From contig JAFGGD010000045.1 in assembly GCA_016930695.1 (NCBI GenBank), positions 62,001 to 126,000 of the forward strand: DNA of 64,000 nucleotides, given 5' to 3'. Positions 29,269-54,863 of the stretch are shown piece by piece. The notes under the pieces are model-generated. The model searched no databases. It saw nothing but the letters and a program-made list of their open reading frames with translations, and was not told where the DNA came from. The translations under genes were made by a program, and so were the position numbers. Position 1 is the first letter of the stretch. Each line of letters begins with the position of its first letter. This DNA comes from Candidatus Eisenbacteria bacterium (lineage in GTDB: Bacteria; Orphanbacterota; Orphanbacteria; Orphanbacterales; Orphanbacteraceae).

Positions 29269-29664
29269 ATGAGCCAAATCCAGATCGTCTCGATCGGCGG
29301 GTCGCTGGCGCTTCTGCTGATCATTCTCGAGTTGATCCGGAAGGGAAAACTGGCCGAAGAGTACAGCCTTCTCTGGATCGCCACCGGGGCGGTGCTGCTC
29401 CTGCTGTCGATCTGGCGGGGGATCCTCGATGCCTTTGCGCGCGTGGTGGGCGTCTATTACCCGCCCTCGGCGCTCTTTCTCGTCGGTTTCGGTTTCATGC
29501 TGCTCCTGATTCTTCACTTCTCGATCGTTCTGAGTCGTCTCACCCGGAACAACCGGAATCTGGCCCAAACGGTGGCCCTGCTCGAGAGAAAGCTGGAGGA
29601 ACGGGAGGAGGAAAAACGGGGAGGGGGTTCCCATGGCGAAGATGAAACGACCCGGGCCCGTTAA
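29269..29664 (+). CDS. DUF2304 small membrane protein
   Basis: The 131-residue product has three hydrophobic helices (about 5-22, 32-50, 65-88), a conserved KGKLAEEYSLLWI loop and a charged coiled-coil-like tail. This matches DUF2304 proteins, which are commonly found next to family 2 glycosyltransferases and are suspected to act as their membrane partners. ATG 29269 has GGAGGAGG at good spacing; GTG 29263 would overlap the previous stop. The last 32 nt overlap the next gene. Confidence 0.82.
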   Translation: MSQIQIVSIGGSLALLLIILELIRKGKLAEEYSLLWIATGAVLLLLSIWRGILDAFARVVGVYYPPSALFLVGFGFMLLLILHFSIVLSRLTRNNRNLAQTVALLERKLEEREEEKRGGGSHGEDETTRAR

Positions 29665-31822
29665 GGAGAAGCCTCGCCTGCCGGCTTTTCCCCGTTGGGC
29701 TTTCCCTGCGGTGATGGCTGCGTCGCTGCTCATCGGGTGGGGAATCCGCAACTTCGATCTCGGGGCGGATCCGCCCGCGTCGATCAGTTGGAGCCAGGGA
29801 CCCTTTACCGACGGCGCGGTGGTGGTGCACAACGCCCGCAACGCCGTTCTTTTCGGCGAGTGGATCCTGAAGGACGATTACTGCCGGGACGTCGCCCTCT
29901 TTCCGCTCTCCAACATGGCGGTCTACCCGGTCTTCCGCGCCTTCGGCGTCGGGCGCCGCCAGGCGGCGTGGCCGAACACGGTCTTCGGCTCCCTGTCGAT
30001 CCTTCTCGTCGCCCTCGCGCTCTGGGCCGCATACGGGAAAGGAAAGGCGCTTCTCTGGGCGGTCGCCGCCTCCTTCAATTATTTCCTGATCATGTTTCAG
30101 AGGATCCCCATCGCGGAGCCGGCGATGATCTTTCTGATGGCGCTCTCTTTCCTCTTCTTTTGTCTCTCCGAGAGGGGGAAACGGTACGTCATTCTCTCCG
30201 GCGCCTTCGCGGCGGCGGCGCCTCTCTTCGGCAAGGCGCACGCCTACTACTTTCCGGCGGTTCTTCTCGCGACGTATCTCCTGACGGGAGGAAAGCGGGA
30301 TCCGCGCCGGCGGAGCGCCCGGTTCGCCGCGGCGGGCATGGCGATCGTGGCGGCGCTCTGGTTCCTGTTGCTCTTTCTCCCCTACGGCGAATACATCACC
30401 GCCCACGTGCTCCACGAATCGGTGAACAAGCACGGGGGCGGAGCGGTGGCGACGATCCGTGCCGTGTTGCAGAACGCCGTCATCATGGGGAGCTACACCA
30501 AGATGAACGAGCGGATGCCGGCGGCGGCCCTGCTCGGCTTTTTCGGCCTCGTGGGGCTTCTCTCGCGCGGTCGTCGCTTTCTCACGGAGGAGCCGCCGGC
30601 CACGGTGTTCCTCTTTCTCTGGCTCGTCACCGGATGGTTCGCGATCGCCTTGGTGAAACTCCCGGCCCCCCGCTATCTTTCGGCGCTCGCCTTCCCGATC
30701 CTGTTTTTCGCCGTGAGCGCCCTGGAACGCTTGTGGGAGGGGAGGCCGATCGTCTGGAAGCACCCGCGTTCCCTTCTCGGCGGGCTGCTCACCGCGGGTT
30801 TGGTTCTCTTTCTCTTCTACCAACCCCTCGCCGCCTTCGGCACACTGACATTGGAGAAGCTGCGGAACTCGTCGTGGGGAATCGGGGTCTACGAGTTCTT
30901 CATTCAGAGAGAGCGCTACGACGAATTGGCCCTTTTCTGCCTGGCGGAGGCGTTGGTTCTTCTCGTCCTCGCTTACGGCCTCTTCTCCCTGCGCGGCATG
31001 AACCGACCCGTGCGCTTTCCCCTCAACCGGAAACGGGGGCGGATTGTCGCGGGCGTTCTGGGGGCGATTCTCCTCTTCTTGAACATCGGGAACTGGGTCT
31101 ACTGGGCGGAGACGCGCACGCACCTCGTGAGGGACGCCTCCCGGGACCTCGGCGACTGGCTCGGGCCGAACGCCCGCCTCATGGGGTCCTACGCCCCCAC
31201 ACTCGGTCTGGACAACACGATCCGCGTCTTCCCCTATTTCGGTGGCCTGGGGGACAAGGACGTCTTCCGTAAATACGGGGTCACGCACGTGGTGGTGGTG
31301 AGCCAGGGGGACCACGGGATCGTCAAGAACGACTACCCGTCGATCTTCGATGCGTGGAGCATGGTGCTTTCCTATCCGCTCATGAGCAAGTACTCCGACA
31401 CCATGGGGATCTTCCGGCTCCCTTCGGAGGTCGATGGGGCGAGGGTCAACGACTACGAACCCTCCCTCTTCGAGCGGGCGGTGGACGTCGCCAAGGAAAG
31501 CCGTTGGGAGGACGCCCTCGCGCTTCTTCAACGTTTCCGCGAGGAGAAGCCGGATAACGCGGACGGGTACTATCTCATCGGATTCATGTACAATGAGTTG
31601 GGCGGCACGGAGCAGGCGGAGGCCGCCATCGCGCATGCGATCGATCTCCGGCCCGAGCGTCCCGGATACGCTCTGAAGCTGGGCGAGATCTACGCCCGGA
31701 TGGGGCGTGTCGCCGAGGCGCGGGCTTGGATGGAGCGAGCCTATTTCATGAACCCGCGGGATCAGGCGGTGCTGGCGGCGCTCCAAAGCCTCGATCGAGC
31801 GGCGCGGAGCACTCCGCGCTAG
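29633..31822 (+). CDS. GT39-like membrane glycosyltransferase with C-terminal TPR repeats
   Basis: The 729-residue product has about eleven membrane segments and a first periplasmic loop (FTDGAVVVHNARNAVLFGEW) placed where GT-C enzymes carry catalytic acidic residues. A soluble domain follows, then two or three TPR-like repeats (about 610-725) with the pattern NADGYYLIGFMYNELGGTEQ. It resembles GT39/ArnT-type transferases using polyprenyl-phosphate sugars. ATG 29633 has GGAGGGGG upstream. The TPR tail repeats the architecture of the DUF2723 protein at 24238, which suggests a shared partner. Confidence 0.8.
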   Translation: MAKMKRPGPVKEKPRLPAFPRWAFPAVMAASLLIGWGIRNFDLGADPPASISWSQGPFTDGAVVVHNARNAVLFGEWILKDDYCRDVALFPLSNMAVYPVFRAFGVGRRQAAWPNTVFGSLSILLVALALWAAYGKGKALLWAVAASFNYFLIMFQRIPIAEPAMIFLMALSFLFFCLSERGKRYVILSGAFAAAAPLFGKAHAYYFPAVLLATYLLTGGKRDPRRRSARFAAAGMAIVAALWFLLLFLPYGEYITAHVLHESVNKHGGGAVATIRAVLQNAVIMGSYTKMNERMPAAALLGFFGLVGLLSRGRRFLTEEPPATVFLFLWLVTGWFAIALVKLPAPRYLSALAFPILFFAVSALERLWEGRPIVWKHPRSLLGGLLTAGLVLFLFYQPLAAFGTLTLEKLRNSSWGIGVYEFFIQRERYDELALFCLAEALVLLVLAYGLFSLRGMNRPVRFPLNRKRGRIVAGVLGAILLFLNIGNWVYWAETRTHLVRDASRDLGDWLGPNARLMGSYAPTLGLDNTIRVFPYFGGLGDKDVFRKYGVTHVVVVSQGDHGIVKNDYPSIFDAWSMVLSYPLMSKYSDTMGIFRLPSEVDGARVNDYEPSLFERAVDVAKESRWEDALALLQRFREEKPDNADGYYLIGFMYNELGGTEQAEAAIAHAIDLRPERPGYALKLGEIYARMGRVAEARAWMERAYFMNPRDQAVLAALQSLDRAARSTPR

Positions 31823-31853: not shown

Positions 31854-32819
31854 ATGGAGGAGCTCCGGAAGGTCGAGAAGGAGGAGTTGGATCTGACGGT
31901 CCTGATTCCGCTCTACAACGAGGAGGCCTCTCTGCGCGAGCTGAAGGAGCGGGTGGCCTCCGAATTGGACCGCGGCGGCTACCGGGGGGAGATCCTCTTC
32001 GTGGACGACGGATCCCACGACGGCTCCTTCGAGGTGATCGAGGAGATGGCCGCCGGCGACGACCGCGTCCGGGCGATCAAGTTTCGGAGCAACTTCGGCA
32101 AGGCCGCCGCCCTGGACGCCGGCTTTCGCGAGGCCCGCGGCCGGATGGTGATCACCATGGACGCGGACCTCCAGGACGATCCCGCCGAGATCCCGAAGCT
32201 GATCGCGCGCCTCGAAGAGGGATACGACGTCGTGTCGGGGTGGAAGAAGAAGAGGCACGACCCGATCACCAAGACTGTGCCGTCCAAGTTCTTCAACCTG
32301 GTGACCGCCGCCGTCACCGGGATCCGGATCCACGACTTCAACTGCGGACTGAAGGCTTACCGCGCGCCGGTGGTGCGCGAGGTCCGTCTTTACGGCGAGC
32401 TGCACCGTTATATCCCCGCCCTGGCGGGTTGGAAGGGATTCCGCGTCGGCGAGATGGTCGTCACCCACCACCCGCGCCGCCACGGCCGTTCCAAGTACGG
32501 TCCCAAACGGTTCCTCGCCGGATTCCTGGATCTTCTGACGGTGATGCTCCTCACCAAGTTCACCGTCAAGCCGCTCCACCTCTTCGGGCTCGTCGGCTCC
32601 CTGATGGGCTTCGGCGGCGTGATGATCAGCCTCTACATGGTGTCTCTGAAGATCCGTTACGGGGACGTGCAGGGGCGCGTACCGCTCCTCTCCTTCGCGG
32701 TCCTCCTCATTATCATGGGGATGCAGTTCCTCTCCACGGGATTGCTCGCGGAGATGATCGCCAGTCGCCGCGCGGGCCAAGAGACGCATTACTCCATCGA
32801 AAGGCGGCTGGGCCGTTGA
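31854..32819 (+). CDS. Family 2 glycosyltransferase of the DPM1/GtrB type
   Basis: This is a polyprenyl-phosphate hexose synthase-like enzyme with LIPLYNEEASLRELKERV, FVDDGSHDGS, the loop SNFGKAAALDAGFREA, the metal-binding MDADLQDDP and the HPRRHGRSKYGPKRF segment. Two C-terminal transmembrane helices (about 240-265 and 275-300) match GtrB-like proteins that make undecaprenyl-phosphate sugars. All expected catalytic aspartates are present. It starts 31 nt after the previous gene with GGAAGGAGG as SD, and its stop overlaps the TTG of the next gene. Confidence 0.9.
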   Translation: MEELRKVEKEELDLTVLIPLYNEEASLRELKERVASELDRGGYRGEILFVDDGSHDGSFEVIEEMAAGDDRVRAIKFRSNFGKAAALDAGFREARGRMVITMDADLQDDPAEIPKLIARLEEGYDVVSGWKKKRHDPITKTVPSKFFNLVTAAVTGIRIHDFNCGLKAYRAPVVREVRLYGELHRYIPALAGWKGFRVGEMVVTHHPRRHGRSKYGPKRFLAGFLDLLTVMLLTKFTVKPLHLFGLVGSLMGFGGVMISLYMVSLKIRYGDVQGRVPLLSFAVLLIIMGMQFLSTGLLAEMIASRRAGQETHYSIERRLGR

Positions 32820-34378
32820 CTCGTCGCGCCTCTTCCGAGAGACGAAAGGGGGCCCCGGCCGCCGCCCGGGAGCCCTTTCCCGTCGCGGTCCTCCCCTGGC
32901 TGCTGGCCGTGCTCTTTCTCGCCGGGGCGCTCTTCCGCTTCGACCCGGACCTTTCCCTGAACGGGGACAACGCCCAGTTTCTGATCTTGGGGGAATCGAT
33001 CGCCACGGGACAGGGGTACCGCCAGATCAACGAGCCCGTTCCGCCGGCGCACACCAAGTATCCCTTTCTCTTTCCGCTTCTCCTCGCGGGAACCCATTTA
33101 ATCGCCCCCGGGAACGTCGTCGTCCCCAAGGTGTTGGTGCTCCTCCTCGGCGCGGGCGCCGTCTATCTACTCGTCCGTCTTCTGTCGTCCACGCTCTCCG
33201 TCCCGGCGGTCGCCGCCTGGGGGGCGCTCACCGCGCTCAACCCGCAGCTTCTCGACTTCTCCCATCAGGTTCTCTCGGAAATCCCCTATCTCTTCTTCAG
33301 CGCTCTCGCGCTCCTGCTCTTTGCCGTGTGGGAGAAGCGGGGGGGGAGGCGCGCTTTCGCGATCGCCGTGATCGCCGTCGTCGCCGCCTACTACACGCGG
33401 ACCGTGGGTGTCGCTCTCGCCGCCGCTTTTGTCCTGCGGCTCCTTTTTATCCGGCGTTTTCGCTACGCCGCGATTCTCGCGGTGGTTTTCGTCGCGGCCG
33501 TCACCCCTTGGGCGGTGCGGAACCGGACGGCGGAGGGAGGGGAATCCTACGTTCGCCAGTTCCTCCTCCAAAATCCCTACGACCCGGAGGGAAAAAAGCT
33601 GACCGCGGGCTACTTCTTCGGCAAGCGTGTCCGGGCGAACGCGGAAACATACGGCGCCTACGAGATCGGACGGTCGGTGGCGCCCTCTCTTTTCCCCCCG
33701 CTGAAACCGAAAAGCTTCGGCGGCACGGGATTTCTCTCCGCGATCGTGACGGTCATCGCCCTCCTCGGCCTCGTCCTCCGGCTGCGGGCGGGGCCGGGTG
33801 CGCTCGAGCTGTACACCGGGGCTTACCTGGCGATCTGTCTCGCCTGGCCGGAGGTGTGGGCGAGCATCCGCTTTCTGCTCCCGGTGATCCCGATGATCCT
33901 TTACTACTTCGGCGTCGGCGTCGTCCGGACGTTGGGAAGGATCCCCCGCGTTCCGATGAAGCCGGTGCTGGCGGTGCTCCTCTTCCTCCTCCTCGTCGGC
34001 GAGGCGGAGTCCAACGTGCGGGCCGGCTTCGCCCCGCGCGGCTATCCGGCGCCCTGGCGGAACTACTTCGCCGTCGCCGATTGGGTGAGGACCGAAACGC
34101 CCGAGCCCAGCGTCATCTGTTGCCGCAAGCCGTACCTCTTCTACGTGCGCGCGCGGCGTCGCACCGTTTCCTATCTGTGGTCCAGGGACCCGGACAGCGT
34201 GTTCGAGGAGATGATCGCCGACCAGGTGAATTACGTGGTGGTCGCCCACCTCTCGGCGACCACCGGACGCTATCTCGTACCGGCGGTTCAAAAGCATGAG
34301 GACCGTTTCGACGTGGTGCTCCACCTTCCCAATCCAGACACCTACTTGCTTCGCCTGCGCGAGGAGGAGCAACCTTGA
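32816..34378 (+). CDS. GT39-like multi-membrane glycosyltransferase
   Basis: The 520-residue protein has about eleven transmembrane segments. Its first extracytoplasmic loop reads NGDNAQFLILGESIATGQGY and contains the Asp expected in GT-C active sites. The conserved TVGVALAAAF and VTPWAVRNRT regions follow, with a short soluble C-terminus. It directly follows a GtrB-like gene, the classic donor-maker plus GT-C pairing. TTG 32816 overlaps the preceding stop (TTGA) and has AAAGGCGG upstream. The acceptor is unknown. Confidence 0.83.
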   Translation: MTRRASSERRKGAPAAAREPFPVAVLPWLLAVLFLAGALFRFDPDLSLNGDNAQFLILGESIATGQGYRQINEPVPPAHTKYPFLFPLLLAGTHLIAPGNVVVPKVLVLLLGAGAVYLLVRLLSSTLSVPAVAAWGALTALNPQLLDFSHQVLSEIPYLFFSALALLLFAVWEKRGGRRAFAIAVIAVVAAYYTRTVGVALAAAFVLRLLFIRRFRYAAILAVVFVAAVTPWAVRNRTAEGGESYVRQFLLQNPYDPEGKKLTAGYFFGKRVRANAETYGAYEIGRSVAPSLFPPLKPKSFGGTGFLSAIVTVIALLGLVLRLRAGPGALELYTGAYLAICLAWPEVWASIRFLLPVIPMILYYFGVGVVRTLGRIPRVPMKPVLAVLLFLLLVGEAESNVRAGFAPRGYPAPWRNYFAVADWVRTETPEPSVICCRKPYLFYVRARRRTVSYLWSRDPDSVFEEMIADQVNYVVVAHLSATTGRYLVPAVQKHEDRFDVVLHLPNPDTYLLRLREEEQP

Positions 34379-39924: not shown

Positions 39925-40648
39925 CGTGAAAACGGTGATCGTCATCCCCACGTACAACGAGAAGGAGAACCTGGAGCGTCTTCTCCCGGAGGTTCTCGCC
40001 GTCTCCGAGGGGGTCGAGGTGCTCGTGGTGGACGACAGCTCCCCCGACGGCACCGCCGATGTGGTTCGCGCCATGGCGGAGAGGATTCCCCGCGTGCACC
40101 TGCTGGAGCGTCCCGGCAAGATGGGACTCGGCTCCGCCTACCGCGACGGGTTCCGCCGCGCACTCGACCTGGGCGCCGACCTCGTGATGGAGATGGACGC
40201 CGATTTTTCCCACGATCCCAAGTACATCCCCGACTTCCTCCGCGCCGCGCAGGTGGCGGACGTGGTGCTCGGCTCCCGCTACATGAACGGCGTGAACGTG
40301 ATCAATTGGCCCATCTCACGGCTGATCCTCTCCTACGGCGCGAACCTGTACACGCGAATCGTTACGGGCATGCCGATTCTGGACGCCACGGGCGGGTTCA
40401 AATGTTTCCGTCGTGAAGTGTTGGAGAAGATCCGCTTCGAAACATCGCGCTCCGACGGGTACAGCTTTCAGATCGAGCTGAACTATCGATGCTGGCGCGC
40501 GAATTATCGGATCCGCGAGATCCCCATCGTGTTCGTGGATCGCCATTCCGGCTCGTCGAAGATGTCGAAGCGGATCATCTGGGAGGCGGTCTGGATGGTC
40601 TGGAGACTCCGCATGGGCGGGCTCCGCCGTGGGGAGGGACGGCCGTGA
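39914..40648 (+). CDS. Polyprenol-phosphate mannose synthase-like glycosyltransferase
   Basis: This GT2 enzyme of the Dpm1/Ppm1 type lacks C-terminal membrane helices. It has the family motifs VIPTYNEKENLERLLPEVL, VVDDSSPDGTADVV, the loop RPGKMGLGSAYRDGFRRAL, metal-binding MEMDADFSHDP and ILDATGGFKCFRREVLE. In this branch the product is polyprenyl-phosphate mannose, the donor of GT39-type enzymes, of which two are encoded upstream. ATG 39914 has GGAGGAGA and overlaps the YfhO-like gene by 11 nt. At 244 residues it is standard. Confidence 0.92.
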   Translation: MCPDVKTVIVIPTYNEKENLERLLPEVLAVSEGVEVLVVDDSSPDGTADVVRAMAERIPRVHLLERPGKMGLGSAYRDGFRRALDLGADLVMEMDADFSHDPKYIPDFLRAAQVADVVLGSRYMNGVNVINWPISRLILSYGANLYTRIVTGMPILDATGGFKCFRREVLEKIRFETSRSDGYSFQIELNYRCWRANYRIREIPIVFVDRHSGSSKMSKRIIWEAVWMVWRLRMGGLRRGEGRP

Positions 40649-42825
40649 ACGGGACCGCTCCCACCGGCGGGGAAGAGGTGCGCCTCTCCGTCATTCTCGT
40701 CAATTACAACACCCGCGACGACATTCTCGAGGCGCTCCGATCTCTACGCGAATACCCTCCCTCCCACGCGCATGAGACCATCGTCGTGGACAACGCCTCC
40801 ACCGACGGGAGTCCGGAGGAGATCGAGCGACTCTTTCCGGAGGTGCGGCGGATCGAGAACGCCGAGAACGTGGGGTACTCCCGGGGGGTCAATCAGGGGA
40901 TCCGCGCCTCTCGGGGCGAGTTCTTCCTGGTGCTGAACCCGGACGTGCGCGTGACCGAGGGGAGCCTGGACCGTCTTCTCGAATACGCCATGGAGCACCC
41001 CGAGGTGGGGATCGCCGGACCGAAACTGCTGAACCCGGACGGAACGCTCCAACACTCCTGTAGAACTTTTTATACATGGAAGACCTTCCTCTACCGGCGC
41101 ACGCCCCTCGGCCGTCTCCGGCCGGACAGTCCGGTGATCCGCAGACACCTGATGCTCGACTGGGACCACCGCTCGGTGCGCGACGTGGACTGGATGCTCG
41201 GCGCCGGCCTCTTGGTCCGCCGGAGCGCGGTGGAGGACGTGGGCGCCATGGACGAGCGCTTCTTCCTCTACTTCGAGGACGTCGACTGGTGCTACCGGAT
41301 GAAGGCGCAGGGGTGGCGCGTGGTTTACGTGGCCGACGCGGAGATGATCCACGCCCACAGGCGGGATTCGGCGCGCCGCCTCTGGAGCCGCCAAACCCGC
41401 TCTCATCTGGGGAGCATGTTCCGTTTCTACGACAAATGGAGCCACGCCGTGTACCGATGGAAGGCGCGCCGCCACTGGGCGCGTTTCATCCTCTCCCTCG
41501 GCATGGACGCGGCGATGATCAACCTCGCCTTCCTGACCGCCTACGGCCTGCGCCGCCTCGTGGAGGCGTTCTTCCCGAGCAAACCGGTGTGGGCGCTCGG
41601 CGCCTACGGCGTTTTCCTGGTCTTCGTAAACCTCATCACGCTGCTCAGCCTCGGCACGAGCGGTTTTTATCGGGAGAGGGTGGCCCCCGCCGGTCCCGGT
41701 CCGGTGGTGGATCGGATCGTCTGCGCGCTCCGCGCCGTCGGGATCGCCTATCTGGTGGTGACCGCCGCCACCTTTCTCACGCAGGCTCACATTTACTCAC
41801 GGATCCTGGTCACCATCTTTTTCGTGCTCCTCGTCTTCTTTCTCGTTCTGGGAAGGAGCCTCCTCGACCGGCTCCACGCCGATCTCCGCCGGGGCGCGTA
41901 CGATCTCGGCCGTGCGGTGGTGGTCGGCACCAACGACCTGGCGGCGGGCTTGGCGGATCAGCTCCGCACCTTCCGTGAACTCGGCTACGACCTGGTCGGT
42001 TTCGTGCGGGAGGATGGGGAGGAGACGGGGGGGCGGAGGGTCCTGGGGGGAGTGGACGAGCTTCCCCGCATCGTGCGGGACCACCGGATCACGGATGTTT
42101 TTTACGCCGGCGTCGGAGATCCTCTCCCCCTGGTGACGCGCCTCCTTCTCCGCCTCCCCGACGCGCCGGTGACGGTGCGGGTTCTCTCCGATCTGGAATC
42201 GATGACCATCGCCCGGGGGCGCGCCGAGGCGTTTCTCAATCTGCCGGTTCTCCGTTTCGAGAGACGGCTTCTCATCCGGCTGCGCCCGGGCAGAAAGCGG
42301 CTCTTCGACTTTCTTCTCGGCGTCGTGCTTCTCATCGCCGGAGCGATTCCGGCGGCGTTGATCACGCTCGCCGCGCTGATCGGCGGGGCGCGTCCCGTCT
42401 TCCGCCGCGAGGAGCGCGTCCATTTCCGCGGCGTCCGAGAGCGTCTCCTCCTCTTCCGTGTTCCCTCGCCCGGCGAAACGGCGGGTGCGGCGCGCGCCCT
42501 CGGAAGCCTCTACGGCCGTTTCCCCTTCCTCGCGGCCTACCCGGCGCTCGGGGCGGTGCTGGCGGGGCGTTTCTCCTTCGTCGGTCCCTTCCCGGAAGAG
42601 CCGGAAGCGGGAAGGTTCCTTGACGAATGGCAGCGCCTTCTGGTTACCATGAAGCCGGGCATCGTTCCGGTGACGGCGCGGGCCGACCATTCGTGGGTCC
42701 CCTTCCGGGACCCGGTGGGTTTGAACCTGTACTACCTCCAGTACTGGTCGATCGGATTCGATCTGCAGATCCTTCTGCATCGCCTCTTCCGTTCGGCGCC
42801 GGCGAGTGAGGAGACCGCTCCATGA
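40645..42825 (+). CDS. Fusion of a GT2 glycosyltransferase and a degenerate sugar-phosphate transferase
   Basis: Residues 12-255 form a rhamnosyltransferase-type GT2 domain (ILVNYNTRDD, VVDNASTDGS, LVLNPDVRV, FFLYFEDVDWCYR) that looks active. Residues 280-405 hold about four membrane segments. Residues 420-540 form a Rossmann-like domain as in WbaP/WcaJ proteins (AVVVGTNDLAAGLADQL). Residues 551-717 align with the bacterial sugar transferase domain: KRLFDFLLGVVLL, RPVFRREERV, FSFVGPFPEE and YWSIGFDLQIL. The catalytic Asp-Glu pair expected before NVLxGxMSLVGPRP is missing (LAAYPALGAVLAGRF, 629-643), so that domain is probably inactive. GTG 40645 overlaps the previous stop. Confidence 0.85.
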   Translation: MNGTAPTGGEEVRLSVILVNYNTRDDILEALRSLREYPPSHAHETIVVDNASTDGSPEEIERLFPEVRRIENAENVGYSRGVNQGIRASRGEFFLVLNPDVRVTEGSLDRLLEYAMEHPEVGIAGPKLLNPDGTLQHSCRTFYTWKTFLYRRTPLGRLRPDSPVIRRHLMLDWDHRSVRDVDWMLGAGLLVRRSAVEDVGAMDERFFLYFEDVDWCYRMKAQGWRVVYVADAEMIHAHRRDSARRLWSRQTRSHLGSMFRFYDKWSHAVYRWKARRHWARFILSLGMDAAMINLAFLTAYGLRRLVEAFFPSKPVWALGAYGVFLVFVNLITLLSLGTSGFYRERVAPAGPGPVVDRIVCALRAVGIAYLVVTAATFLTQAHIYSRILVTIFFVLLVFFLVLGRSLLDRLHADLRRGAYDLGRAVVVGTNDLAAGLADQLRTFRELGYDLVGFVREDGEETGGRRVLGGVDELPRIVRDHRITDVFYAGVGDPLPLVTRLLLRLPDAPVTVRVLSDLESMTIARGRAEAFLNLPVLRFERRLLIRLRPGRKRLFDFLLGVVLLIAGAIPAALITLAALIGGARPVFRREERVHFRGVRERLLLFRVPSPGETAGAARALGSLYGRFPFLAAYPALGAVLAGRFSFVGPFPEEPEAGRFLDEWQRLLVTMKPGIVPVTARADHSWVPFRDPVGLNLYYLQYWSIGFDLQILLHRLFRSAPASEETAP

Positions 42826-48147: not shown

Positions 48148-49857
48148 ATGGACGATTCCCGTCAATCCATCCACCCCCGGGTCCTGGGGGAGATCCTGGC
48201 CAAAAGGAAGTGGCACCTGCTGCTCCCCTTGCTCGTCGTGATCGGCGGTTCCATCTTCCTGATCGAGAGCCTCCCCAAGATCTACAGCGTGCAATCGACG
48301 ATCCTCTTCGAGTCCCAGACCTCGCTCACGCGGGACGTGCAGAGTCACCTCCTTCCCGGATCGCGCTCCAGCGGAAGCCAGCGCCGGGACGACCGAATGG
48401 AGCAGGCGAACCTTCTCCGGATGAAGGTCCTCGCCCCGGAGTTTCTCGGCAACGTGGCCGAGGAGATGGGAGTACTGGAGAACCCGGACCGTTTGGAGCA
48501 AGCCGCGGAGAAGAAGAGGCTGACCGGGGACCCGAAGAGCGTGGAGGCGATCGTCCGCGAAGACGCCACGGGCTGGCTCGGCAGCCTGATCGAGATCAAC
48601 CTGGCCGGGCCGAGCGTATACCAGGTCACCATCGAGGGAAGGCACCCCCGCTTTCTCTACGAGTTGGCGGAGAGGATCAACGCCGATCTCTTCGAGATGG
48701 TGCAGGGAGAGGAACTCTCCCGCATACGGGCCGCCTCGGATTTCACCGACGAGCAGATGCGCCTTTACAAGGACAAGGTGGACGAGGCGCAGCGCGAGCT
48801 GGACCGTTTTCTGGAAACCCACCGCGTGAGCGACCAGGGGGAGCCGGTCACCCGCGTCGATCCGAACGTGGTGGACCGCCTCGCCGAGGAGACCGGCTTC
48901 GAGATCCTGCGGATCACCGAGGACCTACAGGAGACCCGCGCGATCCTGGAGCAGTCCTACGGATACCGGGTGGAGGACTTTCAGGAGACGGTGAGCCCGG
49001 AGATCGCCCTCCGCGTGGAGAGGCTCGTCTCTCTGGAGAAACAACTCGGTTTCCTTCTACTGGAACGATCCTGGAATGATCCCTCGGTGATCGCGCACAA
49101 CTCGCGCATCGGAGGCGCCCGTCAGGAGATCCGCGACGCCCTCGAACGTTCCGCGCGCACGCTTCTCGCGGGGCGTCCCGGCCGGCAACAGGAACTGGCC
49201 GCCACCGCCGCCTTCGACCGGGTGTTGATCGGGTCGTTGGAGTCGCGGAAGGGCGCGCTGATGCGCCAGACATCGCCCGGAGGGGGTGGTCTCTCGCCGA
49301 GCGCCATCAGCCGCCGGGACCAGCAGCTCCAATTCCTCGAGGAGCAGGTCCGCATCAACGAAGAGATCTACCGGTCCTTTGTTCGCCAGGCCACCTCGAC
49401 GCGCATCTCCGAGGCGGTGGAGAGTGAACAGCTGAACCGCAGCCTGCAGGTGATCAAGCCGCCGCGCTGGCCCAGCAGCCCCGTTCGCCCGAACAAGCCG
49501 CAGCTGTACGCCCTCGCGGTGGTCCTCGGCATCGCCCTCGGTTCGGCGCTGGTGATCGCCGGGGAATACATGGACACGTCGGTCAAGGACGTGCGGGACG
49601 CGGAGGAACTGGTCGGCGCGCCGATTCTGGGAACGATCCCCAAAATCGAGTTCCGTTTCGAGCCCGACCCCAAGAACCGTCTTCGCCGCGGCCTGATCGT
49701 CACCATCGTCGGCGGCATCCTGATCGGCGCGCTGATCGGATGGTTCATCTTCGGCGGCGGCGGGGATGAGGGGAACGACGGGGGAGAGTCCGCCCGGGAG
49801 AGCGGGCACGCCGGCTCGGCGACGGCCGCTTCGGGGGGAGGGGAGGCCGGGCGATGA
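48148..49857 (+). CDS. Wzz/GumC-type chain-length determinant protein
   Basis: This inner-membrane polysaccharide co-polymerase should control chain length and dock to the exporter. The 569-residue product has a first membrane helix (about 24-43), a long coiled-coil periplasmic region (about 195-420) and a proline-rich motif KPPRWPSSPVRPNKP before a second helix (about 453-473). The cytoplasmic piece EYMDTSVKDVRDAEELVGAP comes next. The fused tyrosine kinase usual in Wzc is absent and is encoded by the next gene. Instead a third hydrophobic helix (about 515-536) and a Gly/Ser/Glu-rich tail follow, which is unusual. Confidence 0.92.
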   Translation: MDDSRQSIHPRVLGEILAKRKWHLLLPLLVVIGGSIFLIESLPKIYSVQSTILFESQTSLTRDVQSHLLPGSRSSGSQRRDDRMEQANLLRMKVLAPEFLGNVAEEMGVLENPDRLEQAAEKKRLTGDPKSVEAIVREDATGWLGSLIEINLAGPSVYQVTIEGRHPRFLYELAERINADLFEMVQGEELSRIRAASDFTDEQMRLYKDKVDEAQRELDRFLETHRVSDQGEPVTRVDPNVVDRLAEETGFEILRITEDLQETRAILEQSYGYRVEDFQETVSPEIALRVERLVSLEKQLGFLLLERSWNDPSVIAHNSRIGGARQEIRDALERSARTLLAGRPGRQQELAATAAFDRVLIGSLESRKGALMRQTSPGGGGLSPSAISRRDQQLQFLEEQVRINEEIYRSFVRQATSTRISEAVESEQLNRSLQVIKPPRWPSSPVRPNKPQLYALAVVLGIALGSALVIAGEYMDTSVKDVRDAEELVGAPILGTIPKIEFRFEPDPKNRLRRGLIVTIVGGILIGALIGWFIFGGGGDEGNDGGESARESGHAGSATAASGGGEAGR

Positions 49858-50537
49858 AAGAGACCCGAATCCTGGAAGGCTACGACCCGGAGGCGCCGAG
49901 CGCCATCGAGTTCCGCCGTCTTTACTCGCGCCTCCGCTACAAACAGGCGGGGAAGGCGATCTCTCCTCTCATGGTGACGAGCGCCAAACACGAGGAGGGG
50001 AAAACCACCACCGCCGCTTTTCTGTCGGTCACGATCGCCCGGCAGGAGAAGGGGCGCGTGCTTCTGATGGACATGGACCTCCACAGGCCCCGCATGCATC
50101 GCCTCTTCGGCCTCCCTCTGCGGGGAGGGGCGACGGAGTTGCTTCGCGGGACCGCCGAACCGGAGGAAGTGGTCCGCCCGACGTCACAGGAGAACCTCTT
50201 CATCCTGACCAGCGGATCGATGGTGAAAAGCCCGTCCGCGCTGGTCGATTCCGAGCATGTCGGACCGCTCTTCCGGCGGCTCGCCGCCCTCTACGACACG
50301 GTGGTGATCGATTCTCCCCCGTTGCTTCCGGTGAGCGACGGAATGGTGCTCGCCGGTTCGGTGTCGGCCGTTCTTTTCGTGATTATGGCGGGAAAAACGC
50401 CGCGGGAGGTCGTTCTTCGAGGGAAGGAGATCCTTCGCGACGTGGATGCCCCCTTGGCGGGTGTGGTCATCAACAACACGAAGGGCGCCCTGCCCTACTA
50501 TTACGACTATAAATACTACGGGTATCGGTACAAATAG
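49854..50537 (+). CDS. CpsD/CapB-type bacterial tyrosine kinase
   Basis: BY-kinases of this family autophosphorylate on a tyrosine-rich tail and cycle with the Wzz-like partner to drive polymer assembly. The 227-residue cytoplasmic protein has Walker A in SAKHEEGKTTTA, with HEE where PGE is common, Walker A' LLMDMDLHRP and Walker B VVIDSPPLLPVSD. Its last 13 residues contain seven tyrosines (from YYYDYKYYGYRYK). The split kinase is Gram-positive-like but also occurs in diderm exosortase-type loci. ATG 49854 overlaps the Wzz stop (ATGA). Confidence 0.93.
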   Translation: MKETRILEGYDPEAPSAIEFRRLYSRLRYKQAGKAISPLMVTSAKHEEGKTTTAAFLSVTIARQEKGRVLLMDMDLHRPRMHRLFGLPLRGGATELLRGTAEPEEVVRPTSQENLFILTSGSMVKSPSALVDSEHVGPLFRRLAALYDTVVIDSPPLLPVSDGMVLAGSVSAVLFVIMAGKTPREVVLRGKEILRDVDAPLAGVVINNTKGALPYYYDYKYYGYRYK

Positions 50538-50564: not shown

Positions 50565-51530
50565 ATGACGGATTCCCGTCCGGAACGACTCGATGTGAGC
50601 GTGGTGATCCCCGTCTATGACGAAGAGGGGAACGTGCGTCTTCTTCACGAGAGAACACGGCCGGTTTTGGACGGGCTCGGACTCTCATGGGAGATCCTGT
50701 TCGTCGACGACGGATCCCGGGACGGCACCTTCGATCGTCTCCGGGAAATCCGCGAGAGGGACCGGCGCGTGCGTGTCGTTCGGCTCCGGCGGAACTTCGG
50801 GCAGACGGCGGCGCTGGCCGCCGGTTTTCAGCACGCCCGCGGCGATCGGGTGGTCACCATGGACGGAGACCTGCAGAACGACCCGAGGGACATCCCCGCG
50901 ATTCTCGCCAAGATGGACGAGGGATTTCAGGTGGTGAGCGGCTGGCGAAAGAGCCGGAAGGAACCGTTTCTTACGCGACGGCTCCCTTCCATCACCGCCA
51001 ACGCGCTCATCTCACGGCTCTCCGGCGTTCCTCTTCACGATTACGGTTGCACCCTGAAGGGATACGAGAGGGAGGTGGCGCAACGGTTGCACATCTACGC
51101 GGAGATGCACCGCTTCCTTCCGGCTCTCGCGTCCCTCACCGGCGCCCGAGCCGCCGAGGTGCCGGTCCGGGATCATCCCCGCCATTCCGGCGTCTCCAAG
51201 TACGGCCTCGGCCGCGTGGGACGGGTCATGGCGGACCTGGTGGCGCTGCAGATGATTCTCCATTTCGCCTCGCGGCCGCGCTATTGGTTCAGCTATCTCG
51301 CCTTTCCCTTCGCGCTGGCCGGAACGGTGATCGGTCTCTGGGCCGCCTATTGGTACATCAATCAACCAGCCGGCCAACCGCCGATCGTGCTTCCCGGAAC
51401 CACTTTTCTTCTCTTTTTCGCTTGGTTCTACCTTCTCTCGCTCGGATGGTTCGCCGAGATCGTTACGGCCACCGGTAACTACAGGCAAGGCTCGATGCTG
51501 AGCGGCCTGATCGGAAGGGGTGAGGCGTGA
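50565..51530 (+). CDS. Family 2 glycosyltransferase of the GtrB type
   Basis: This probable undecaprenyl-phosphate hexose synthase has VIPVYDEEGNVRLLHERT, FVDDGSRDGTFDRL, the loop RRNFGQTAALAAGF and the intact metal site MDGDLQNDP. The acceptor region HPRHSGVSKYGLGR follows, with two C-terminal membrane helices (about 235-260 and 278-300). All catalytic aspartates are present. It is immediately followed by, and overlaps by four bases, a shorter homologue that has lost the metal-binding motif. The SD is GGAG before ATG 50565. Confidence 0.9.
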   Translation: MTDSRPERLDVSVVIPVYDEEGNVRLLHERTRPVLDGLGLSWEILFVDDGSRDGTFDRLREIRERDRRVRVVRLRRNFGQTAALAAGFQHARGDRVVTMDGDLQNDPRDIPAILAKMDEGFQVVSGWRKSRKEPFLTRRLPSITANALISRLSGVPLHDYGCTLKGYEREVAQRLHIYAEMHRFLPALASLTGARAAEVPVRDHPRHSGVSKYGLGRVGRVMADLVALQMILHFASRPRYWFSYLAFPFALAGTVIGLWAAYWYINQPAGQPPIVLPGTTFLLFFAWFYLLSLGWFAEIVTATGNYRQGSMLSGLIGRGEA

Positions 51531-52474
51531 GCGACCCGCGGAACGCGCCGGTGGAGGTCACCGTCTTTCTCTACCTCCCCTACGCCGTCGATGGAGTGGA
51601 CAAGCAGATCCGTGAGATCCGGGAGGGGCTCGCCGGAATCTCCCACGAGATCCTGATCTTGGACGACGGCACGGGGAAGGGCCGGGGCTGGCTCGACGGA
51701 CTTCCGACGGGCGCGGGACCGGTGCGCGTGGTTCGTCTTTCGAAGCGTTTCGGCGAAACCGCCGCCATCGACGCGGCGCTTCCACACGCCTCCGGCGGCG
51801 TTTTCCTCACCGTTCCCGGAACGCTTCCCGTTTCGGCCGACGAGATCCGGAGCCTGCGCGAAAGGATCACGGAGGGGGCGGACCTCGTTCTCGGCGCGCG
51901 ATCCGGCGAGCCGGGGGGCGGGCGGGAGCGCCTGCCGCTTCGCGTGTATCGCCGCCTGATCCGCGGCGCCACCGGAGCGAGCTTCCGGGATTTCACGAGC
52001 GGCGTCCGCGCGTACCGTCGCGAGGTGGCGGAGGAGATCGCCCTCTACGGGGAGATGATCCGGTTCCTTCCCTTCCTGGCGGTGGGCCGGGGATACCGGG
52101 TCGAAGAGATTCTACTCCAGGTGAGCTGGCCGCGCGGCAACGGCGCCCGCGCCTCCCGCCCTACCGTCTATTTCAACCGGATATTGGACGTGCTCACCCT
52201 TTACTTCCTTCTGCGCTTCACCCAGAAGCCGCTCCGCTTCTTCGGGCTCGTCGGCTCGATCCTCCTCTTGCCCGGCGTTTTGATCAACCTCTACCTGTTC
52301 ATCGATCGCGTGATCCTCTCGCACGGAATCGCCGGCCGCCCGCTCCTCCTCCTCGGGATTCTACTCACCGTGCTCGGCGTGCAAACCATCTCCATCGGCC
52401 TGATCGGGGAGATGATCATCTTCACACACTCGCGGGAAACGCGCGATTACAGCGTCCGCGAGGTCCTCGAATGA
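51527..52474 (+). CDS. Degenerate GtrB-like family 2 glycosyltransferase
   Basis: The fold and two C-terminal membrane helices match the preceding protein: ILILDDGTGKGRGW, LSKRFGETAAIDAALPHA and FTQKPLRFFGLVGS. Where the paralogue has MDGDLQNDP, this 315-residue protein has TVPGTLPVS (95-103), losing every metal-binding Asp. The SKYG acceptor motif is also replaced (RGNGARASRPTVYFNR). The gene is intact and translationally coupled by GTGA, so it is not an obvious pseudogene. I infer a non-catalytic partner of the upstream enzyme, perhaps as a heterodimer. Confidence 0.82.
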   Translation: MSDPRNAPVEVTVFLYLPYAVDGVDKQIREIREGLAGISHEILILDDGTGKGRGWLDGLPTGAGPVRVVRLSKRFGETAAIDAALPHASGGVFLTVPGTLPVSADEIRSLRERITEGADLVLGARSGEPGGGRERLPLRVYRRLIRGATGASFRDFTSGVRAYRREVAEEIALYGEMIRFLPFLAVGRGYRVEEILLQVSWPRGNGARASRPTVYFNRILDVLTLYFLLRFTQKPLRFFGLVGSILLLPGVLINLYLFIDRVILSHGIAGRPLLLLGILLTVLGVQTISIGLIGEMIIFTHSRETRDYSVREVLE

Positions 52475-53499
52475 CCGTCCGCCCGTTCCGCGACGGGGAT
52501 GAGGAGCATTGGCGCGCCTTCGTCGGCGCTCGTCCGGAGAGCCGCGTCGGGCACCGCATCGAATGGCGCTCGGTTCTCGCCGAGAGTTTCGGCCACCGCC
52601 CGCGCTATCTGATCGCCGAGAGGGAGGGGCGTATCGCAGGCGTGCTCCCTCTGGTGCGCGTCGAGGGGTTGGTGGGAGGAAGGGCGCTCGTCTCCCTTCC
52701 CTGGCTGGACGACGCCGGCCCCCTCGCCGAGGACGCGGACACGGAAAGAGCTCTTCTCCGGCGTGCCGTCGAGATCGGCCGCGAGGAGCGCTGCCGCTAC
52801 GTGGAGATCCGCTCCCTGCGCGATCTGGGAGAGCCGCGACCGGTCCGGGAGGGCAAGACCACCCTGCTCCTGGAATTGGACGACCCGGAGCGAATGTGGA
52901 ACGGCTTCCCCGCCAAGGTGCGAAACCAGATCCGCAAGGCGGAGAAGGAGGGGCTCGTCGCCGAGAGCGGAGGCGCGGAGCTTCTCGATCCTTTCTATCG
53001 GGTTTTTTCGCGGAACATGCGGGACATCGGCGTTCCCGTTTGGGGCCGTGACTTTTTTAAGAGGATGGCCGCGGCCTTCGGTCCGAGCATGGAGGTGATC
53101 GTGGTCCGGGAAGAAGGGGAAACCCCGGTGGGTGGATGCGTCCTTTTGCGCCACGGAGAGACGGCGGTCGTGCCGAGCGCTTCGTCGCTTCGAGACCGCT
53201 TCCGCCTCTGCCCGAACCACCTTCTCTATTGGACCGCCATCCGTCGCGCCCGGGAGGGGGGGGCGAGCGTTTTCGATTTCGGACGCTCCACGGCGGGGAG
53301 CGGCACCTATCGTTTCAAGAAACAGTGGGGCGCCGCGCCCGTCCCCTGCCGGTGGCACTATGCGCTCCTCCGTGCCGACGCCGTGCCGGAGCGCAGCACC
53401 GCGAGCCGCAAGCTTCGCCTCTTCGTCGAGGCATGGAAGCGCCTTCCCCTCCCGTTAGCGCGGTGGTTGGGGCCGGTCATCGTCCGGAGGATCCCGTGA
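52471..53499 (+). CDS. FemAB/GNAT-fold protein of the exosortase-associated type
   Basis: The 342-residue cytoplasmic protein has two GNAT-like halves with the pattern of FemAB-related proteins: RSLRDLGEPRPVREGKTTLL, then the basic helix AKVRNQIRKAEKEGL, and the C-terminal FDFGRSTAGSGTYRFKKQWG. This last motif is characteristic of the FemAB-like family associated with PEP-CTERM/exosortase polysaccharide loci. Members are thought to transfer an acyl or aminoacyl group, but the reaction is not established. It is overlapped by ATGA upstream and GTGA downstream. Confidence 0.85.
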   Translation: MTVRPFRDGDEEHWRAFVGARPESRVGHRIEWRSVLAESFGHRPRYLIAEREGRIAGVLPLVRVEGLVGGRALVSLPWLDDAGPLAEDADTERALLRRAVEIGREERCRYVEIRSLRDLGEPRPVREGKTTLLLELDDPERMWNGFPAKVRNQIRKAEKEGLVAESGGAELLDPFYRVFSRNMRDIGVPVWGRDFFKRMAAAFGPSMEVIVVREEGETPVGGCVLLRHGETAVVPSASSLRDRFRLCPNHLLYWTAIRRAREGGASVFDFGRSTAGSGTYRFKKQWGAAPVPCRWHYALLRADAVPERSTASRKLRLFVEAWKRLPLPLARWLGPVIVRRIP

Positions 53500-54863
53500 A
53501 TCGCTCCGGTCCGCTCTCACTCGTCCTGATCGCCCTCGTGGTGGGCGCCGTCGGCGCTTTGGCGGTTGTCAATCTCCCCACGCAGGTGGGTTGGGCGCTG
53601 GCGATCGCCCTCCTGCCGATCGCGGCGGTTCTCCTCGCCGTGTTGAAGCGCCCCTTCCTGGGCGTCCTTTTGATCTACTTCCTCGAGTATTTTCGCCCCC
53701 AGGACATGATCGCTCCCCTGCAACCGCTCCGCCTCCCCTTCCTCACGACCATCGCGATGTTCGGCGTCTTCATCATCCTGGTGATTCGCGACCCGAACCG
53801 TCGCTTGATCTGGTCCAGGCAGAGCACGACACTCGTCGGACTGCTCGCCTTCATGGGGCTCTCGGTCATCACCTCGATCAACAACTATTGGGCGTTCCAG
53901 TATTTCCGCGGCATGGCGCTCACGGTTATTCTTTATATGCTGACCGTCAATTTGGTGGACCGTCGTACGCGCGTGCGCGCCCTGATCGGCCTTCTCGTGG
54001 CGGCCCATATTTTTCTCTGCGGGAAAGGGATCGTCCAGTTCCTCGTCGGCAACCGCTGGGGGACCACCGGGTCGGTGGGAGGCAACTTCCTCGGCGACGA
54101 GAACGACTTCGCCATGGCGCTCATCGTGATCTTCCCCTTCGTTTTCTTTCACATCGAAGAGAGCCGGAGAGCGGGGAAGAAGCTGTTCTGGGCGCTCCTG
54201 GCGGGCGTTCTGCTCGTCACGGTCATGCTCACGATGTCGCGGGGCGGCTTCGTCGGTATGAGCGCCACCCTCTTTTTCTGCTGGCTCCGCAGCCGGCGAA
54301 AACTGCTCGGTGCGTTCGTCATGATTCTTCTGATCAGCGCCGTGGCGGCGATCGCCCCGTCCCGCTACTTCGAGGAGATCGCGTCGATCCGGAACACCGA
54401 CGAGGGAACCGCCCACAAGAGGAGGGAGTACTGGCTCGCCGGCATGCGGATGTTCGCCGAAAAGCCGCTCATCGGCGTCGGACCGGGGAACTCGCCGCTC
54501 TACATGCCCCGTTATCTGGACCTGCCGAACCCGGACACCCAATGGGGAAGAGCGATGCACGGCACCGTTCCCCTTCTCGTGGCGGAGATGGGAGCCGCGG
54601 GGATCGCCATCTACACGATCCTCGCGCTGCAGTGCCTCGGAGACCTCCGCAAGACTCTGCGCTACGGACGACGGGGAAAGGGGGAAGGCGCGCGTTTCGC
54701 CCGCTATTTCGGCACCGCGACCCTCGGGAGCGCGATCGGGTTCTTGGTCACATCCTCGTTTCTTTCGGCTCTGTACTACCCGCACATCTACCTCATCACT
54801 TCTTTTTGCGTAATCGGACTCCGCCTGTCGAGTCGGGCTGAGGAAGAAGAGGAGGAACGATGA
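53496..54863 (+). CDS. O-antigen ligase/polymerase-like membrane protein
   Basis: The 455-residue protein has about eleven membrane helices and the Wzy/WaaL-type large periplasmic loop. The motif FLGDENDFAMAL and the sequence REYWLAGMRMFAEKPLIGVGPGN are typical of the exosortase-associated O-glycosylation ligase branch. It would polymerise repeat units or ligate glycan to an acceptor on the periplasmic face. GTG 53496 is set by the overlap with the FemAB-like stop. The C-terminus is a Glu/Arg-rich cytoplasmic tail. Confidence 0.86.
   Translation: MNRSGPLSLVLIALVVGAVGALAVVNLPTQVGWALAIALLPIAAVLLAVLKRPFLGVLLIYFLEYFRPQDMIAPLQPLRLPFLTTIAMFGVFIILVIRDPNRRLIWSRQSTTLVGLLAFMGLSVITSINNYWAFQYFRGMALTVILYMLTVNLVDRRTRVRALIGLLVAAHIFLCGKGIVQFLVGNRWGTTGSVGGNFLGDENDFAMALIVIFPFVFFHIEESRRAGKKLFWALLAGVLLVTVMLTMSRGGFVGMSATLFFCWLRSRRKLLGAFVMILLISAVAAIAPSRYFEEIASIRNTDEGTAHKRREYWLAGMRMFAEKPLIGVGPGNSPLYMPRYLDLPNPDTQWGRAMHGTVPLLVAEMGAAGIAIYTILALQCLGDLRKTLRYGRRGKGEGARFARYFGTATLGSAIGFLVTSSFLSALYYPHIYLITSFCVIGLRLSSRAEEEEEER

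Follow-up and report, generated by a model that had tools for sequence, protein, structure and literature searches.

Why should an exopolysaccharide (EPS) locus carry, directly behind the gene of an intact membrane glycosyltransferase, a second full-length homologue that lacks the metal site? This question is raised by two genes, here called P1 and P2, in the window (the whole stretch of 64,000 nucleotides analysed, from a Candidatus Eisenbacteria genome). Polyprenyl-phosphate glycosyltransferases charge a lipid carrier, used for many surface glycans, with sugars; those with solved structures from bacteria are homomeric. The P1/P2 pattern suggests a two-part working enzyme with one deliberately dead half, and we consider it probable that P1 and P2 are the obligate active and pseudoenzyme subunits of one membrane enzyme of the EPS locus.

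P1 is predicted to be an intact polyprenyl-phosphate glycosyltransferase

P1 (50565..51530, forward strand; ATG start, 321 aa) is an intact gene whose ArnC/GtrB-like product matched Pfam Glycos_transf_2 (4.2e-31) and, in a PDB sequence search, ArnC (1e-49) and GtrB (7e-30). AlphaFold2 modelling (pLDDT 89.0; 72 aligned sequences) and Foldseek revealed a GT-A fold followed by two C-terminal transmembrane helices. GtrB binds the metal-UDP through D94xD96, and a role in binding the acceptor phosphate has been proposed for R122 and R200 (PMC4728340). The P1 metal/donor site MDGDLQNDP (residues 99–107; 50859..50885, forward strand) aligned with D94xD96. Across P1, D100, D102, R128 and R206 were invariant, and both acceptor arginines are thus present. 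Glu20, Asn77 and Gln80 were found in 70/70 aligned orthologues, and the SKYG motif (residues 211–214; 51195..51206, forward strand) showed invariant S211, K212 and Y213. Judged by its sequence, P1 should be a polyprenyl-phosphate sugar transferase like ArnC and GtrB.

P2 retains the fold and lacks the metal site

P2 (51527..52474, forward strand; GTG start, 315 aa) is a DxD-less homologue and the proposed non-catalytic subunit. Its start and the P1 stop share 4 bases, GTGA (51527..51530, forward strand), an arrangement of translational coupling. The AlphaFold2 model of P2 (pLDDT 90.1; 80 aligned sequences) showed a GT-A fold, two transmembrane helices and a C-terminal strand, and the architecture common to P1 and P2 comprised the GT-A domain, a juxtamembrane helix and the two transmembrane helices. 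ArnC ranked first and GtrB next among the PDB fold matches of both models, and both enzymes were also matched by the P2 sequence. These results bear out the initial annotation, which had described two adjacent genes with a four-base overlap, the same fold and membrane helices.

The replacement of MDGDLQNDP by TVPGTLPVS, noted at the same time, was likewise confirmed. TVPGTLPVS (P2 residues 95–103; 51809..51835, forward strand) occupies the same aligned site. All P1 orthologues that cover this site (70/70) had D100 and D102, whereas DxD was found in 0/82 aligned P2 orthologues. The first DxD position of P2 was mostly Pro, Thr, Ser, Ala or Gly and the second mostly Tyr or Arg, with substitutes that varied by clade (P-x-Y, T-x-R, P-x-T/R). 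The equivalents of Glu20 and Asn77, invariant in P1, were variable in P2, and a P2-specific FGE replaced FGQ in 77/80 sequences. Arg125 of P2 (51899..51901, forward strand), the equivalent of the acceptor-phosphate residue R122 of GtrB, formed an invariant column (Arg in 82/82), and the equivalent of GtrB R125 was retained in 76/82, while the equivalent of R200, the second acceptor arginine, was Arg in only 9/82. The reported loss of SKYG held for the window P2 and did not extend to the whole group, part of the KSB1-type P2 having kept R-x-SKY; only the DxD loss therefore defines the P2 group.

From these residues, P2 is predicted to be non-catalytic. It may retain some activity, since the fold is conserved and an Arg and the Asp equivalent to P1 D159 (82/82) are invariant. 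Metal-independent GT-A enzymes exist, and the main rival explanation is that P2 is an active enzyme of this type, acting in sequence with P1, in which basic or aromatic residues replace DxD. Arg at the second DxD position in 35/82 P2 and the invariant Asp would fit such an enzyme. However, DxD substitutes that differ by clade and a variable Glu20 and Asn77 are unlike a maintained active site, and a self-sufficient P2 would not need the invariable pairing with P1 described below; we regard this explanation as unlikely.

P2 is an old lineage under purifying selection

The initial annotation had supposed that selection keeps the second gene. Among the closest ortholog pairs, dN/dS (Nei-Gojobori) was 0.07–0.33 for P2, like the 0.03–0.28 of P1, with dS near saturation in part of the pairs, and no relaxed selection was seen, in agreement with this supposition. 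In a quick IQ-TREE tree, with long branches and quick support values without bootstrap, a branch with SH-aLRT 99 set P2 apart as one clade; P1 formed one clade except for the singleton L036 nested inside. P2 thus combines active-site loss, a retained fold and purifying selection, the features of a pseudoenzyme.

The lost DxD, together with the loss of SKYG in the window family, might point to a duplicate in decay that persists by chance or through operon polar effects. But the P2 alignment (80 sequences) contained 16 invariant columns, and full-length frames were found across phyla. Because dN/dS is low and P2 is one old clade, we reject this reading as scarcely credible.

The closest relative of P2 in the window genome was an intact singleton at 31854-32819 (35%, compared with 32% for P1). 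The earlier term paralogue is therefore correct at the depth of the family only, since this singleton is nearer in sequence than P1, and P2 branches off deeply as a clade of its own. An origin of P2 as a recent tandem duplicate of P1 was unsupported on the same two grounds. The singleton is ArnC/GtrB-like, with MDADLQDDP, SKYG and a C-terminal arm, and is flanked by large GT-C-looking membrane proteins at 29633-31822 and about 32800-34378.

P1 and P2 occur and diverge together

All seven genomes covered from the window's family (the window genome and six others) contained P2. In the six others, P2 orthologues shared 48–65% identity over complete genes, one P2 being broken across two contigs, and P1 directly preceded the P2 start in 6/6, with an overlap of 4 bases in 5/6 and 8 bases in 1/6. 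In a set of 71 pairs, a start codon giving an exact 4-base overlap was available in 27.

Starting from the P2 alignment, we searched 84,980 species genomes with two C-terminal peptide patterns alone, so that neighbouring genes played no part in the selection; 80 loci were kept. The loci came from Eisenbacteria, KSB1, Calditrichota, Gammaproteobacteria, Nitrospirota, Planctomycetota, Binatota, Omnitrophota and others, a spread of at least seven phyla, in which most genomes with the pair are metagenome-assembled and single taxon labels may be wrong. Two alphaproteobacterial plasmids also bore the pair, and cultured environmental carriers include Indioceanicola profundi and Rhodobacteraceae bacterium S2214. 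With the plasmid pairs included, every P2 preceded by sufficient sequence (77/77) had P1 upstream in the same orientation; for the other seven P2, the contig ended within 450 bases. A second set, chosen by a DNA motif for GE-x-IIFTH, held P2 in 31/32 loci, and P1 lay upstream of P2 in 31/31. The co-occurrence check proposed in the initial annotation thus revealed no frequent loss of P2 (7/7 family genomes) and an intact P1 upstream of every P2 with sufficient preceding sequence in both sets. Since pairing and DxD loss recur in every orthologous pair examined, neither is due to chance.

In a broad sample of 386 genomes, the GE-x-IIFTH DNA motif was found in 10, of which seven belong to the window's family; in the KSB1-like phylum it was found in 48/79 genomes, and a reversed control gave zero occurrences. 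The pair is therefore thinly spread as a whole but frequent in certain phyla. Phage records queried with P1 gave distant relatives only, and the plasmid matches in Sinorhizobium and Azospirillum were unpaired singletons. At one locus of the second set (L143), a small TauE/SafE-like membrane gene lay between P1 and P2.

P1 and P2 distances were correlated over 77 pairs (0.90). As a control for shared descent, we used a third glycosyltransferase of the same operon, the AglJ-like one found downstream at 28 loci. The results showed r = 0.77 for P1 and P2, compared with 0.08 for P1 and the third enzyme and 0.15 for P2 and the third enzyme, and the partial P1–P2 correlation was reached in 0/2000 permutations at these 28 loci. 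P1 and P2 move or evolve in concert, unlike the operon neighbour. This co-divergence could also arise if the two tightly linked genes were transferred as a unit.

The catalytic site and the C-terminal arm lie on different proteins

Neighbouring subunits of the GtrB tetramer are linked by a short hairpin at the C terminus (PMC4728340). The C-terminal arm of P2, GEMIIFTHSRETRDYSVREVLE (52406..52471, forward strand), carries invariant E295 and Y308, a segment I297–H301 conserved in at least 90%, and a modelled strand at 310–314. The C-terminal tail of P1 (51474..51527, forward strand) lacks a subunit-bridging arm, with a pLDDT of about 50 and no strand. When presence was scored as sequence reaching the end of the P2 profile, the arm after the second transmembrane helix was complete in 84/84 P2 and 16/23 canonical singletons, and a GtrB-like hairpin was reached in only 2/77 P1. 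P1 and P2 look complementary because P1 keeps DxD and has lost the arm, while P2 keeps the arm and has lost the donor site.

A predicted catalytic/non-catalytic heteromer is well supported indirectly by the pairing, the clade structure, the co-divergence, the complementary active site and arm, and the P2-FemAB fusion described below. P1 would be the catalytic subunit and, like ArnC and GtrB, would use a nucleotide-sugar as donor to glycosylate polyprenyl phosphate. P2 would be a pseudoenzyme with the GT-A fold and membrane helices, devoid of the residues that bind metal and nucleotide-sugar and with juxtamembrane arginines kept, and would supply the subunit-bridging arm missing from P1. The likely assembly would be a P1/P2 heterotetramer replacing the GtrB homotetramer. 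In this assembly, the role of P2 would be to stabilise its partner, to complete the lipid-entry side of P1 and perhaps to form part of the lipid path. We infer the physical P1–P2 complex, its stoichiometry, the inactivity of P2 and the substrates.

The L036 protein (1375-2643) belongs to the P1 clade and has extra membrane segments and an arm-like end; no P2 was found in its genome. It is possibly a natural single-chain version. It also demonstrates that members of the P1 clade do not always come with a P2, which counts against obligate pairing.

Relation to known enzymes

The closest solved relative of P1 and P2, in sequence and fold, is ArnC, the undecaprenyl-phosphate Ara4FN transferase (PDB 9ASC, 9BHC, 8VXH, 9HWJ), which differs in being a single gene with an intact DxD and arm. 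Against the ArnC equivalog model (cut-off 529 bits), P1 scored 165 bits and P2 85 bits, and all 80 P2 scanned matched NCBIfam models of other GT2 enzymes, the ArnC model best. GtrB, the undecaprenyl-phosphate glucosyltransferase (Synechocystis sll0501; PDB 5EKP, 9NYC), shares the GT-A domain, the juxtamembrane helices and the two transmembrane helices, with equivalents of DxD, R122 and R200 in P1 and of R122 in P2. In contrast to the present pair, in which DxD and arm are split over two genes, GtrB is one gene and a homotetramer, each subunit being catalytic with its own hairpin.

The human dolichol-phosphate-mannose synthase DPM1-DPM2-DPM3 is a further likeness, and its non-catalytic chains are not known to be glycosyltransferase-like. 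It is a heteromer in which separate chains give the membrane parts (PMC4728340), whereas the partner here would be a full-length homologue with a putatively dead GT domain. PssG and PssI of Rhizobium leguminosarum, encoded in an EPS locus, are two homologous GT-A enzymes that interact with each other and serve a single step; they differ from P1 and P2 in being 68% identical and membrane-bound via amphipathic helices (PMC9961541), and are not known to have lost the metal site. Polyprenyl-phosphate glycosyltransferases with extra chains (DPM1/2/3) and interacting homologous EPS glycosyltransferases (PssG/PssI) are thus known already.

No publication on such a P1/P2 pair was found in the open-licence literature, which lacks most subscription journals and so gives weak evidence, and the same literature yielded no description of a catalytic site and arm split between two full-length homologues. 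The chances seem about even that the pairs form a widespread undescribed heteromeric class, with an ancient DxD-less obligate subunit, a catalytic site/arm split and, in some lineages, coupling of the P2-FemAB type. If true, the conserved active/dead pair would show how a pseudoenzyme regulates or specialises such enzymes, and nature would have provided a system in which catalysis is uncoupled from oligomerisation and lipid entry. The P2 genes of many EPS loci, at present labelled only 'glycosyltransferase', would then need a corrected annotation.

The exopolysaccharide locus and the FemAB-like protein

The genes around P1 and P2 identify an EPS locus with further enzymes. Upstream on the forward strand lie a polysaccharide chain-length determinant-like protein (48148..49857; TIGR03007 118 bits, below the cut-off of 279) and a polysaccharide tyrosine autokinase (49854..50537; TIGR01007 129.5 bits, cut-off 108). 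Downstream on the same strand, a FemAB-like protein (52471..53499) overlaps P2 by 4 bases and scored above the cut-off of the XrtA/PEP-CTERM-associated FemAB model (TIGR03019 326 bits, cut-off 260), and an O-antigen ligase/polymerase-like protein follows (53136..54863, ORF start uncertain; Wzy_C 60 bits, cut-off 31.7). An XrtA (exosortase A) system was considered and rejected: the FemAB match was above the cut-off, yet exosortase (PF09721) was absent from the window genome and four related genomes (G000–G004).

P2 and the FemAB-like protein formed a single ORF in six loci (L108, L110, L112, L116, L117 and L094), five of them labelled planctomycetal; in the L112 fusion, P2 spans residues 164–475 and FemAB 545–884. 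These fusions, with the 4-base P2/FemAB overlap in the window, would suit a P2 that is mainly a membrane scaffold for FemAB-like and other EPS enzymes and makes no contact with P1. We find this improbable, as FemAB is not adjacent in most P2 loci, yet P1 is present in all, and the arm kept by P2 is the part lost from P1. The fusion is confined to few, mostly planctomycetal loci, which also limits the support that it lends to the heteromer. Within the preferred heteromer, P2 might dock the FemAB-like enzyme in some lineages.

In KSB1-type loci, an AglJ/dolichyl-phosphate-hexose-transferase-like protein followed P2 in 28/56 scanned, and a YdjM-like membrane protein often preceded P1 (22/59); L044, L067 and L078 are examples with the third AglJ-like gene, often with the YdjM-like gene upstream. 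Elsewhere in the window, one ORF (40489-42825) seemingly joins a GT2 domain to a sugar-phosphate transferase-like C-terminal part.
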